From Geodermatophilus marinus (GTDB lineage: Bacteria > Actinomycetota > Actinomycetes > Mycobacteriales > Geodermatophilaceae), in the NCBI RefSeq assembly GCF_003428645.1, contig NZ_QVQH01000019.1, positions 1 through 64,000 on the forward strand: a DNA stretch of 64,000 nucleotides, in the 5' to 3' direction. Positions 12,708 to 39,288 of this stretch are shown in pieces. Each line of letters begins with the position of its first letter. Position 1 is the first letter of the stretch. The position numbers and the translations under genes are program-made. Below the pieces are notes generated by a model. That model saw nothing but the letters and a program-made list of their open reading frames with translations, was not told the origin of the DNA and ran no database searches.

Positions 12708-14483
12708 CTACCGCAGCCGGCGCGTGCTGTCGGGCAGCCGCTGGGTGACGCCGCGGGCGTCGAGCCACTCCATGAGCGGGACGGCGACCCGCCGCGTGGT
12801 GCCCCAGGCCGCCCGGGCCTGGCTGAGGGTGAACGGTGCGGGGAGGGCGACCAGCCGCTCCCGGGCGACCGCCTCGACCCCCGGCGCCAGGTAGACGCCC
12901 TCGGCGATGCGCACCAGCTGCCGCTCGCGGACGGCGGCGGCCAGCTCCCGCGGGCCCAGCGCGGCGGCGGCCAGGTCCCCGGCCTCGGGGGCGGCGAACG
13001 GGTCGGCGGCCAGCCGGGCCCGGATGCCGTCGACCGCGGCCTGCACCCGAGGCGGCAGCCCGGCGGCGGCCGCGACGACGCGGCCCTCCTGCAGGGCCAG
13101 CGGGGGCCGGACCGCGACCGGGACCAGCTCGGGGGCGGGCAGCTCGAGCGCGCGCTGGACCACGGCGACCGGCGGGCCGGGCTCCAGGGGGCGCAGCCGC
13201 CGGTAGCGGGTCACCACGTCCGGCAGGGCGGCCGCGAGCTCGTCGGGCAGGCCCGGGGCGAGCAGCCACGGCCCGACCTGCGCGGCGCCCTCCGGGACCG
13301 GCCAGCCCATCGCGGTGAAGTCGGCGGTGCGGACGACGCGGCGCCGGGCCAGGTCGGCCGCCGCCCCCGCCGCCCCGCCCGGCCGCGCGGAGAGCTCCGC
13401 GGCGCGCGCCCGCGCGGCCCCGCGGCGGCGCAGCTCGGGCGGGTCGACGTCGCGCACGTCGGCGCCGAGCACCCGGCGGGCGCCGGGGTCGCGGAGCAGC
13501 AGCCGGTCCCCCACGCGCAGCGGCAGCGGGCCGGCCAGCCGCAGCCGCACCGCCGCGCCGTCCAGCGGGCGGGTCCGGGCCGCCACCGCGGCCGAGCCCA
13601 CGTGCACCACCACCTCGGCCGGCAGCCGCGGGGCGTCCGCCGACCCCCACCCGCCCCCGGCCAGCAGGACGTCGACGTCGGAGGTGGCGCGGAAGGCCCC
13701 CGGGGTGAGCAGGGCGCTGCCGCGGGCGAGGTCCTCGACCGCCACGCCGCGCAGGTTCAGCGCCACGCGCGCGGTCGCCTCGGCCCGGCCGACCGGCTCC
13801 CCCAGCGACTGGACCCCGCGGACGGCCACCTCCCGGCCCCCGAGCAGCAGCCGGTCCCCGGCGGCGACCCGGCCGGCGGACAGCGTCCCGGTGACCACCG
13901 TGCCGGCGCCGCGGATCGGGAAGGCCCGGTCCACCCACAGCCGGACCGGTGCGGCGCGGTCGGGAGCGGGCAGGCCGGCCAGGAGGGCCTCCAGCGCCGC
14001 CGCGACCTCGGGGACGCCCCGGCCGGTGACCGCGCTGACCGCCACCCCGGGGACCTCGCCCATCGAGGTCGCGGCCAGCCGCTCCCGCGCGTCGGCCAGC
14101 ACCGGCGCGGTCGCGGCCAGGTCGGCCTTGGTGACCGCCAGCAGCGCGTGCCGCACGCCCAGGGCGTCGAGGACGGCGACGTGCTCGGCGGTCTGCGCCG
14201 ACCAGCCGTCGTCCGCGGCGACCACGACCAGCGCCGCCGGGACCGGGCCGACGCCGGCGAGCATGTTGCCGACGAACCGCTCGTGCCCGGGGACGTCGAC
14301 CACCGCCAGCCGGCGGCCCGAGGGCAGCGTCGTCCAGGCGAAGCCGAGGTCGATGGTCAGACCCCGGCGGCGCTCCTCCTCCCACCGGTCGGGCTCCATG
14401 CCGGTGAGCGCCCGGACCAGCGTGGACTTGCCGTGGTCGACGTGCCCGGCGGTGGCGACGACGTCCATGCCGGGCGGGCTCAC
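12708..14483 (-). CDS. selB: Selenocysteine-specific elongation factor SelB
   Basis: GTPase that brings Sec-tRNA to recoded codons carrying a SECIS hairpin. The 591-residue protein has the full layout: EF-Tu-like G domain (AGHVDHGKSTL near 12-22, DVPGHERFV, TKAD), domains II and III, and C-terminal winged helices that bind the mRNA hairpin, ending PLMEWLDARGVTQRLPDSTR. The GTG start overlaps the selA stop (GTGA); an ATG five codons later (14468) begins the strongly conserved part and is a fair alternative. The stop codon is UAG, the codon its own tRNA partner should decode. Reading through would add 16 residues before UGA. Confidence 0.93.
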   Translation of the reverse strand: MSPPGMDVVATAGHVDHGKSTLVRALTGMEPDRWEEERRRGLTIDLGFAWTTLPSGRRLAVVDVPGHERFVGNMLAGVGPVPAALVVVAADDGWSAQTAEHVAVLDALGVRHALLAVTKADLAATAPVLADARERLAATSMGEVPGVAVSAVTGRGVPEVAAALEALLAGLPAPDRAAPVRLWVDRAFPIRGAGTVVTGTLSAGRVAAGDRLLLGGREVAVRGVQSLGEPVGRAEATARVALNLRGVAVEDLARGSALLTPGAFRATSDVDVLLAGGGWGSADAPRLPAEVVVHVGSAAVAARTRPLDGAAVRLRLAGPLPLRVGDRLLLRDPGARRVLGADVRDVDPPELRRRGAARARAAELSARPGGAAGAAADLARRRVVRTADFTAMGWPVPEGAAQVGPWLLAPGLPDELAAALPDVVTRYRRLRPLEPGPPVAVVQRALELPAPELVPVAVRPPLALQEGRVVAAAAGLPPRVQAAVDGIRARLAADPFAAPEAGDLAAAALGPRELAAAVRERQLVRIAEGVYLAPGVEAVARERLVALPAPFTLSQARAAWGTTRRVAVPLMEWLDARGVTQRLPDSTRRLR

Positions 14484-15781
14484 CGGGCCGCCGCCAGCAC
14501 GGCGGCGGCCAGGCAGTCGTCGGCGGTGGGCGGCAGGCTGCGCAGGTCGAGCAGCGTGCGGTCGCCGGCGACGTGGCCGACGACCGGGGGCGTGCCCCGG
14601 CGCAGCGGCTCGGCGAACCCTGCCGGCAGCGAGACCGCGGCGCTGGGCAGCGGCTGCTCGGGCGCCCCGCCCCCGCCGACCCGCGCCCGGGAGCCCACCG
14701 CCACCGCGTCCACCCCGGCCGCGGACAGCCGGGCGGCCAGCGCCTCGGCCCGGCGGTGCAGCCCGGCGGCGTCCGCGGCGAGCATCTCCCCCACCGGCGG
14801 CAGCGGCCCGCGCAGGGTGGCCTCCAGCGCGGCCAGGGTCGTCTTGTCCACCCGCAGCGCCCGGTAGAGCGGGTGCCGGCGCAGCCGCTGCACCAGGTCG
14901 GCGCGGCCGAGCACCAGGCCGGCCTGCGGGCCGCCGAGGAGCTTGTCCCCGCTGGCCAGCACGAGGTCCGCGCCGTCGGCCAGCGTGCTCTGCAGGTCGG
15001 GCTCGTCGGGCAGCACCGGGTGCGGCCGCAGCAGGCCGGAGCCGACGTCGGCGACCAGCGGGACGCCGCGGCCGGCCAGCGCCCGGGCCAGCTCGGCGAC
15101 CGGCACAGCGCGGGTGAAGCCCCGGACGACGAAGTTCGACGGGTGCACCTTGAGCACCGCGCCGGTGCTGCCGGTGAGGGCGCCGAGGTAGTCGTCGAGG
15201 GCCACACGGTTCGTCGTCCCCACCTCGCGCAGGCGAGCGCCGGTGGCCTCGAGCAGCTCGGGGATGCGGAAGCCGTCGCCGATCTCGACCAGCTCGCCGC
15301 GGGCGATGACCAGCTCACCGCCCAGCGCCGTGGCGACCAGCGCCAGCGCGGCGGCGCAGTTGTTGACCACCAGGGCGGCCCCGGCCGCGGGCACCGCCTC
15401 GAGCAGCGCGGCCAGAGCGCCCACGCCGCGGGGGCCGCGGCGGCCGGTGCCCAGGTCCAGCTCGACGTCGGTGGTGCCGGCGGCGGCCGCCACCGCCTCC
15501 ACCGCCGCGGCCGACAGCGGGGCGCGGCCGAGGTTGGTGTGCACGAGGACCCCGGTGGCGTTGAGGACCGGCCGCAGGGACGACGCGGTGCCGGGCAGCG
15601 CGGCCACGACCGCGGCGACGGCGTCCCCGGGCACGACCTCGCCCTGCCGGACCCGCTGCTGCACCTCCCGGACGGCGACCTTCACCAGGTCCCGCCCCAG
15701 CCGGTCGGCGGCGGCCACCAGCCGCGGGTCGGCGAGCAGCGAGTCGGTGCGGGGCACCTGCCGCCGCGGGTCGGCGCTCAT
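14480..15781 (-). CDS. selA: L-seryl-tRNA(Sec) selenium transferase SelA
   Basis: PLP enzyme that converts Ser-tRNA(Sec) to Sec-tRNA(Sec) using selenophosphate. At 433 residues it is slightly shorter than the E. coli enzyme. The PLP lysine is Lys280 in ASGDKLLGGPQAGLVLG. Other family stretches are NATGVLVHTNLGRAPLS, VVNNCAAALALVATAL and VGTTNRVALDDY. It stands 50 bases downstream of the selenocysteine tRNA gene on the same strand and overlaps selB by 4 bases, so selC-selA-selB may be one transcript. Confidence 0.95.
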   Translation of the reverse strand: MSADPRRQVPRTDSLLADPRLVAAADRLGRDLVKVAVREVQQRVRQGEVVPGDAVAAVVAALPGTASSLRPVLNATGVLVHTNLGRAPLSAAAVEAVAAAAGTTDVELDLGTGRRGPRGVGALAALLEAVPAAGAALVVNNCAAALALVATALGGELVIARGELVEIGDGFRIPELLEATGARLREVGTTNRVALDDYLGALTGSTGAVLKVHPSNFVVRGFTRAVPVAELARALAGRGVPLVADVGSGLLRPHPVLPDEPDLQSTLADGADLVLASGDKLLGGPQAGLVLGRADLVQRLRRHPLYRALRVDKTTLAALEATLRGPLPPVGEMLAADAAGLHRRAEALAARLSAAGVDAVAVGSRARVGGGGAPEQPLPSAAVSLPAGFAEPLRRGTPPVVGHVAGDRTLLDLRSLPPTADDCLAAAVLAAAR

Positions 15782-15831: not shown

Positions 15832-15927
15832 TGGCGGAGGCGGACGGGAATCGAACCCGCCTGACCGAGCTGCTCGGCCACGTCGGCTTTAGAGGCCGCG
15901 GGGGCCACCAGGCGCCCTGACGCCTCC
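15832..15927 (-). tRNA. selC: tRNA-Sec with anticodon CUA (reads UAG)
   Basis: A 96-nt tRNA on the minus strand, beginning GGAGGCG and ending with encoded CCA. The acceptor arm has 7 pairs (GGAGGCG/CGCCTCC) with discriminator G. The T arm closes on TTCGATT with 5-6 pairs, so acceptor and T arms stack to 13 pairs, as in bacterial tRNA-Sec. A long variable arm has a 7-pair stem (GGCCGAG/CTCGGTC, loop CAG). The anticodon stem CGGC/GCCG closes the 7-base loop CTCTAAA, where C32 U33 is followed by C34 U35 A36. The bacterial standard is CTTCAAA with anticodon UCA. It lies between selA and divergent selD, confirming identity. One base, A45, is unpaired in the 3' side of the anticodon stem. Confidence 0.92.
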
Positions 15928-15950: not shown

Positions 15951-16941
<991 letters not shown>

Positions 16942-16961
<20 letters not shown>

Positions 16962-38277: not shown

Positions 38278-39288
38278 ATGGAGCTGCTCGAGTACGGCTT
38301 CATGCAGCGGGCGCTGCTCGCCTCGCTGATGGTGGGCCTGGTGGCCCCGGCGGTCGGCGTCTTCCTGGTGCAGCGCCGGCTCTCGCTGCTCGGCGACGGC
38401 CTGGGCCACGTCGCCCTCACCGGCGTCGCGGTGGGCGTGCTCACCGCCACGGCGCCGGTCGGGACCGCGCTGGTGGCCGCCGTCCTCGGCGCGGTCCTCA
38501 TCGAGCTGATCCGCGCCCGCGGCCGCACCAGCGGGGACGTCGCCCTCGCCGTCCTCTTCTACGGCGGGATCGCCGGCGGCGTCGTCCTGCTCAGCCTCGC
38601 GCCCGAGGGGCGGGCGACCAACCTCGACGCCTACCTCTTCGGCGCGATCACCACCACCAGCACCGCCGACGTCGCCGTCTTCGCCGTCATCGCCGCCGTC
38701 GTGGTCACGGTCGTCTGGCTGCTCGGGCAGCGGCTGTACGCGGTCAGCGACGACGAGGAGTACGCCCGCGCCGTCGGGCTGCCGGTGCTCCCGCTCAACG
38801 TCGTGCTGGCCGCGCTCGTCGCCTCCACCGTGGTGCTCTCCATGCGGGTGGTCGGCCTGCTGCTCATCAGCGCCCTGATGATCCTGCCGAGCGCGGTGGC
38901 CCAGCTGCTCGGCCGCAGCTTCCGGCAGACGCTCCTGCTCGCCTGCGGCATCGGCCTCGTCGTGAGCGTCTCGGGCACCAGCGCCTCGTACTACGCCGGC
39001 ACCCCGTCGGGCGGCACCATCGTGCTGCTGGCCATCGCCGTCTTCCTGGTGGTCTCCGCGACCGTGGCCGCGCGGGAGACGACGGCCCGCCGCCGGCACC
39101 GGCGTAGGGTCGAGGTCCACGCGGCCCACCCGCACGAGCACGGTGCCGGGTGCGGGCACCCGGCGGTCCCGCACGGCGACCACGTGGACTACGACCACGA
39201 CGGGCACCTGCACGCCCCGCACCGGACCGGCGCGGGGGTGCACTACGACGAGCACGGCGCGCACGCCGGGCAGGGAGGACGACCGTGA
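38278..39288 (+). CDS. znuB: Zinc ABC transporter permease with His-rich C-terminus
   Basis: ABC-3 family permease of 336 residues with about eight to nine membrane segments (LGDGLGHVALTGVAVGV, VGLLLISALMILPSAVAQLL). The last 60 residues are unusually rich in His and Asp (HPHEHG, HGDHVDYDHDGHLHAPH), likely a cytoplasmic zinc-binding tail. ATG start one base after the znuC stop. Confidence 0.92.
   Translation: MELLEYGFMQRALLASLMVGLVAPAVGVFLVQRRLSLLGDGLGHVALTGVAVGVLTATAPVGTALVAAVLGAVLIELIRARGRTSGDVALAVLFYGGIAGGVVLLSLAPEGRATNLDAYLFGAITTTSTADVAVFAVIAAVVVTVVWLLGQRLYAVSDDEEYARAVGLPVLPLNVVLAALVASTVVLSMRVVGLLLISALMILPSAVAQLLGRSFRQTLLLACGIGLVVSVSGTSASYYAGTPSGGTIVLLAIAVFLVVSATVAARETTARRRHRRRVEVHAAHPHEHGAGCGHPAVPHGDHVDYDHDGHLHAPHRTGAGVHYDEHGAHAGQGGRP

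Follow-up and report, generated by a model that had tools for sequence, protein, structure and literature searches.

Selenocysteine tRNAs with CUA and UCA anticodons in one Geodermatophilus genome may point to two selenocysteine codons

The window analysed in this study, a 64,000-nucleotide stretch of the Geodermatophilus marinus genome, carries a tRNA with a CUA anticodon amid genes for selenocysteine (Sec) synthesis (Table 1), and the question that it raises is which codon, or which codons, this genome uses for Sec. The window is part of a 5.23-Mb genome of 71 contigs, which is reported to be 100% complete with a contamination of 0.02. In the initial annotation, the gene was described as a 96-nt tRNA-Sec with encoded CCA and a CUA anticodon, and this is borne out by ARAGORN, by Rfam and by the sequence itself. 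The tRNA-Sec-aware prediction that had been proposed as a check gave a full-length match to RF01852 at 15836-15927 (65.3 bits, gathering score 47, E 4.7e-11). The long variable arm was recognised correctly as well, but not its length, since the stem has up to 8 pairs, one of them G-U (by eye), where 7 bp had been given. The anticodon loop reads CTCTAAA in the window tRNA and CTTCAAA in seven UCA-only genomes of the Geodermatophilaceae, as had been stated for the standard loop; what had been missed is that the closing pair of the anticodon stem is also altered, from U-A to C-G.

Table 1. Positions of the Sec-related features; positions without a prefix refer to the window.
Feature	Position	Strand	Evidence and remarks
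tRNA-Sec, anticodon CUA, encoded CCA, resident selC	15832..15927	-	ARAGORN CTA; Rfam RF01852
selA, L-seryl-tRNA(Sec) selenium transferase	14480..15781	-	TIGR00474, 406.5 bits (cut-off 267.9); PF03841
selB, Sec-specific elongation factor	12708..14483	-	TIGR00475, 268.8 bits (cut-off 242.25); stop = TAG
selD, selenide water dikinase	15951..16961	+	TIGR00476, 379.8 bits (cut-off 125)
tRNA-Sec, anticodon TCA (UCA)	C17:1169-1263	-	Rfam, 81.8 bits; all arms; encoded CCA
AhpD-like gene, 192 residues	L027:1579-2157	divergent from tRNA-Sec(UCA)	starts 315 bp away

The placement of the tRNA between selA and selD agrees with the coordinates and the NCBIfam matches. The genes follow the order selB-selA-[tRNA]-selD, and selA, selB and selD each exceed their NCBIfam cut-offs. 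The N-terminal redox site of selD, inspected by eye, has Cys and not Sec. No sigma-70-like promoter site was found around the window tRNA. Elsewhere in the window, ARAGORN reported a 96-nt tRNA-Glu(CTC) at 38383-38478, where no Rfam family reached its gathering score, and GC-rich DNA seems to have given a false positive here.

Two genes of this genome carry TAG at a Sec position. The formate dehydrogenase gene fdhA, located on contig C70 (NF041513, 1983.6 bits), contains one in-frame TAG, which falls where Sec is known to stand (NQARI*HSATVPG); 18 nt past it, the motif GGTCT forms the apical loop in a hairpin predicted to have 7 pairs. Another gene belongs to the UGSC family (NF041046, 139.3 bits, cut-off 125) and has one TAG, at the U of UGSC (ALAD*GSC). 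These are the selenoprotein homologues with in-frame TAG for which a search of the genome had been suggested. The initial claim that Sec is read from UAG holds, with TAG at the Sec site of both FdhA and the UGSC-family protein and with the TAG of fdhA conserved family-wide, and UAG as Sec in this genome is well supported.

The stop codons of 74 heuristically picked genes comprise 70 TGA, 3 TAG and 1 TAA, and selB also ends in TAG. A genome-wide reassignment of UAG was rejected on these grounds, UAG still terminating 3 of the 74 picked genes and selB. Since UAG still ends genes, Sec insertion at either codon must depend on context. The TAG stop of selB (window 12708-12710, minus strand) recurs at 12 of 36 other selB ends in the family, against 3 of 74 among the picked genes, a count made on related and hence not independent sequences. 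That the gene of the elongation factor for UAG-Sec itself terminates in UAG may merit closer attention.

The CUA anticodon is widespread in the family. The tRNA-Sec search covered 112 family genomes (E<=1e-9, with strict filters by which weak matches may be lost) and found tRNA-Sec in 108 of them, the remaining four genomes being 72-82% complete. The anticodon was determined in all 108, in 22 genomes by exact pattern and in the others by ARAGORN on 29 loci and on 58 stretches (57 further genomes). CUA is present in 101 and UCA in 8, and this genome alone belongs to both groups. A sequencing error in the loop, named in the initial annotation as something that would undo its reading, is very unlikely because CUA is common to so many of these genomes.

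The fdhA gene was found at E<=1e-100 in 98 of the 108 family genomes searched. All 30 inspected loci have TAG at the Sec site (NQARI*H) and the GGTCT loop 18 nt after it, and, by a reading of the search table, a row covering the Sec codon with one TAG is present for 96 of the 98 genomes. G034 has only an fdhA fragment, in which the Sec site is not included. In G079, an fdhA fragment (C4:95-2353) begins after the Sec codon, yet one in-frame TAG is listed for it. An extra TGA is listed in two fdhA rows (G009 and G029), the one in G009 (L147) being the gene's regular stop codon.

Scanning the GTDB species genomes with the CUA pattern gave 71 stretches, 65 of which come from Geodermatophilus, Blastococcus, Modestobacter, Klenkia, Trujillonella, Goekera or genomes bearing the family name only. 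Another stretch, L067, comes from a 'Frankiales' MAG, and its tRNA scores as tRNA-Sec in Rfam. The pattern matches outside the family in L047, L061, L068, L076 and L082 have no Rfam tRNA-Sec match, look like chance and were discarded. Among the 66 retained stretches, Rfam was run on L042, L055, L067 and L070, and the remaining stretches were assessed from the sequence that surrounds the match.

A tree of 29 SelA rows places the CUA-bearing sequences on one side of a 100/100 branch, with the three UCA-bearing family members that it includes lying outside. The tree fits, though it does not prove, a single change of the anticodon, which probably took place in the ancestor of most Geodermatophilaceae. 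From UCA to CUA, this change would have comprised the loop (CTTCAAA to CTCTAAA) together with the closing stem pair described above.

Additional copies of tRNA-Sec were observed in a few family genomes. Two different CUA tRNA-Sec genes lie about 59 kb apart on contig NZ_JABGCI010000003.1 of Blastococcus endophyticus (L089, L101), and their flanks are 85-88% similar, as if the sel region had been duplicated on this contig. G037 has two CUA tRNA-Sec genes on separate contigs, the second at C25:205-296 on a contig of 5.6 kb. G072 and G074 (L109, L110) each have a second UCA pattern match near a contig end, where ARAGORN finds no tRNA-Sec, and these matches are probably cut-off copies.

The second tRNA-Sec of this genome, with the anticodon UCA, lies on contig C17. 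In an alignment with the CUA tRNA-Sec, 34 of the first 66 columns agree and the last 30 (T arm and 3' acceptor side) are identical, this identical 3' part of both tRNAs being widely conserved in the search of 396 phylum genomes. The best match to the UCA tRNA in those 396 genomes has 87% identity over 81 of its 95 bases and comes from another family of the class, and for this reason the tRNA looks foreign. The gene is preceded by a sigma-70-like site with an extended -10, whose end lies 8 nt before the first base of the tRNA; this is the one site found in the 1.2-kb region, where 0.2 were expected. The stretch with the tRNA and the neighbouring ahpD has no phage match, and its plasmid matches, in 5 records, cover the tRNA part only.

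This tRNA and a gene with in-frame TGA beside it bear on the initial view that the genome reassigns Sec to UAG, which stands for UAG as a Sec codon but is incomplete. A tRNA-Sec(UCA) and a homologue with in-frame TGA had both been named as findings that would speak against the UAG reading. Both are present, and they would add a second Sec codon while leaving UAG unrefuted.

The gene in question is AhpD-like; its CxxC motif has a TGA, the only one in frame, in place of the second Cys codon (NRCFY*MESHAEF), and 94 open codons follow. The protein scores 105.1 bits against TIGR01926, above the cut-off of 81.8, and 43.3 bits against AhpD_rel_CFYUT (NF041238), below the cut-off of 175. The read-through protein is predicted to fold as AhpD with a mean pLDDT of 88.3, and its best PDB match is 6k40, with 2oyo also matched. 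The TIGR01926 proteins with CxxU are listed as a selenoprotein family in the accessible text of one study (PMC13188914).

Homologues of this protein (E<=1e-15) occur in 22 of the 396 phylum genomes, in 27 rows. Exactly one TGA is present in 19 of these rows (16 genomes) and none in the other 8; when both rows of this genome itself are excluded, one TGA is present in 18 of 25. Among the 26 rows inspected (L203, in which the motif search did not find the motif, was left out of the motif count and the alignment), the CxxU position has TGA in 18 and TGC or TGT in 8, and one of these Cys-type rows is this genome's own paralogue on contig C23. The columns invariant in the 26 aligned rows are E83, S90, C95, the Sec/Cys site, H102, G161 and R182, all of which are kept in the AhpD-like gene. 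Decay is an unlikely source of the TGA, because there would be no reason for it to strike at this codon, to produce TGA, and to do so beside a UCA tRNA-Sec. The gene has a GC content of 60%. At E<=1e-25, no close relative other than the gene itself was found in 397 genomes of the order, and the protein matches in 68 plasmid records are all below 60% identity.

In an unrelated genome of the phylum, G540, the stretch L196 1462-2970 has an AhpD-UGA gene flanked by the end of selB on one side and a tRNA-Sec(UCA) on the other. When 26 AhpD homologue loci were scanned for tRNAs, tRNA-Sec was found in the fetched flanks only at L196. Because of the arrangement in G540, the ahpD/tRNA pair may have been derived from a sel locus of this kind.

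The hairpins after the Sec codons differ in their statistics. In ahpD, a 7-pair hairpin with a GUU loop occurs at about the same distance from the codon as in fdhA, but it is not more stable than shuffled sequences (z -0.11), and an equally long stem is present in 1395/20000 synonymous variants, so that we regard it as at most compatible with a SECIS element. The fdhA hairpin is itself modest (z -1.06; 1604/20000 synonymous variants), and its support is the conserved GGTCT loop, at the same place in 30 of 30 inspected loci. The hairpin of the UGSC-family gene is better than those of ahpD and fdhA (112/20000 synonymous variants).

At E<=1e-100, the 69-kb contig C17 holds the genome's only dxs, which is 85-89% identical to the dxs of the 25 other genomes of the genus, and C17 can be regarded as native because of this gene. 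The GC content of C17 is 0.754-0.765 from 20 kb on, the window having 0.764; it is 0.697 overall in the first 20 kb and 0.59-0.65 over C17:1000-6000. Transposase genes lie beyond ahpD; Pfam places one of them in the IS21 type and gives integrase-core and HTH domains for others, which we take to be of the IS30 and IS3 types. A desampylase-like gene is located next to ahpD (L027 2476-2985, minus strand; NF041370, 57.6 bits, below the cut-off of 130), and two further genes of the island have no Pfam or NCBIfam match. Furthermore, tblastn found no selA, selB or selD on C17, so the second (UGA) set has no such genes of its own there, and the only SelB in the genome above the TIGR00475 cut-off is that of the window, other SelB matches falling below it. 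A comparison of stretches for an insertion sequence shared by C17 and other contigs gave a single match, of 71 bases, and dxs served as the link instead. We conclude from the sequence that the tRNA-Sec(UCA)/ahpD stretch is a putative horizontally acquired island in a native chromosome.

The explanation that we consider likely is that a host with UAG-Sec acquired a UGA-Sec gene together with its own tRNA, both systems being served by one SelA, SelB and SelD. It is extremely improbable that the window tRNA is instead a tRNA-Pyl or a general amber suppressor and that UAG does not mean Sec. ARAGORN does name this tRNA (15832-15927, minus strand) tRNA-Pyl, a label given because of the CTA anticodon alone, while the full-length RF01852 match, the long variable arm, the location between selA and selD, and the occurrence of TAG where fdhA and the UGSC gene are known to have Sec all stand against it; the tRNA-Pyl identity was rejected on the Rfam match and the sel neighbourhood. 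A general amber suppressor is also at odds with UAG remaining an ordinary stop in the picked genes and selB. That the second tRNA is an assembly artefact or a contaminant, the genome having only the CUA tRNA, can be considered for a draft of 71 contigs in which some 1.2 kb separates the UCA tRNA from a contig end, the start of C17 seems (by eye) to lie within a transposase gene, and the GC content over C17:1000-6000 is anomalous; as far as the assembled sequence by itself can tell, the island may have been joined falsely to the remainder of C17. We hold this very doubtful in view of the low reported contamination and of the contig itself, which carries the only dxs, close to that of the genus, and has the GC content of the genome from 20 kb on.

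More weight can be given to another possibility, still an unlikely one, in which the UAG system is the sole working one, a transferred sel region has left the UCA tRNA and the AhpD-like gene behind as an inert remnant, and the UGA of that gene simply ends translation. The IS-rich, low-GC surroundings near the contig end would suit such a remnant, as would the weak statistics of the ahpD hairpin, the lack of selA, selB and selD on C17, and the occurrence of tRNA-Sec(UCA) beside CUA in this genome alone among the 112 searched. It is harder to reconcile with a UCA tRNA that has all arms and an encoded CCA and scores higher in Rfam than the window tRNA (81.8 vs 65.3 bits), with the promoter-like site well placed before it, and with an AhpD-like gene of full length that has no other stop and keeps the invariant columns.

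In the explanation that we consider likely, the resident tRNA-Sec(CUA) would be charged with serine and then converted by SelA with selenophosphate from SelD, and SelB would deliver it to UAG followed by a SECIS hairpin in fdhA and in the UGSC-family gene. The UAG code would have arisen once, in the ancestor of most Geodermatophilaceae, and the tRNA-Sec(UCA) would have been gained later by horizontal transfer along with the AhpD-like CxxU gene, which kept the ancestral Sec codon UGA. What SelA and SelB read on tRNA-Sec is its body and its acceptor/T side, and SelB also attaches to the SECIS hairpin; the choice of the Sec codon can thus be left to the anticodon alone. Both tRNAs could therefore share the single SelB and the resident SelA and SelD, each anticodon selecting its own stop codon. 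We infer that the UCA tRNA is produced, charged and put to use, and likewise that the UGA of the AhpD-like gene is decoded. The claim as a whole, that UAG and UGA both mean Sec in one cell, whose ancestors switched to UAG and which regained UGA with an imported gene and tRNA on one SelA/SelB/SelD, is one towards which we lean with moderate confidence.

UAG-programmed selenoprotein synthesis was reportedly described in Geodermatophilus and Blastococcus by Mukai et al. in 2016. The initial annotation had pointed to published UAG-Sec in these two genera, and the precedent in the Geodermatophilaceae is confirmed by the accessible text of PMC5330540, in which, with a citation of Mukai et al., CUA tRNA-Sec is given for three genomes of the family and UAG for one AhpC as well as for formate dehydrogenases and UGSC proteins. 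The window adds one more locus to this published system, with the same CUA tRNA-Sec and TAG at the Sec sites of fdhA and the UGSC gene. Unlike that system, for which a second anticodon is not mentioned in the accessible text (PMC5330540), this genome also has a tRNA-Sec(UCA) and a TGA gene. Genomes with multiple tRNA-Sec genes, also treated in PMC5330540, resemble it in having two tRNA-Sec genes per genome. In those genomes the extra copies are identical or have pairing-preserving changes, with two anticodons not mentioned in the accessible text, whereas the two tRNA-Sec genes here have different anticodons, and a gene that fits is present for each of them. The AhpD-like gene shares with the TIGR01926 CxxU family, as far as the accessible text of PMC13188914 describes it, the score above the cut-off, the CxxU motif, the UGA Sec codon and Cys-containing relatives. 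It differs in being found in a UAG-Sec host with its own tRNA-Sec(UCA). No published genome with both CUA and UCA tRNA-Sec was found in the accessible text of the open-licence literature searched, and as far as these searches show, a natural genome with both UAG and UGA for Sec would be new, while UAG-Sec in the family is already known.

The natural spelling of Sec by both UAG and UGA, if true, bears on how codon meanings change. Ideas on codon reassignment invoke a two-tRNA state, and such a state could be grown and tested in this organism. It would also be testable whether SelB makes its choice from the mRNA hairpin and the tRNA body only, leaving the codon to the anticodon. If the explanation is true, selenoprotein genes arriving by horizontal transfer would meet a barrier in the changed Sec codon, and this barrier was crossed here because the tRNA came with the gene; whether a private Sec codon has such an effect would be testable as well. 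In practice, if all three codons were annotated as stops, fdhA and the UGSC gene would be cut short at TAG, and the same would happen to the AhpD-like gene at TGA.

The gene order of the window, with tRNA-Sec(UCA) in place of CUA (selB-selA-[tRNA-Sec(UCA)]-selD), is also seen on plasmids of Tsukamurella (NZ_LR134459, L250) and Arthrobacter (NZ_CP110115, L251). These plasmid cassettes have UCA and a formate dehydrogenase, with no AhpD-like gene annotated in the stretch seen. The Arthrobacter plasmid NZ_CP110115, which bears one of the sel cassettes, is typed as conjugative.
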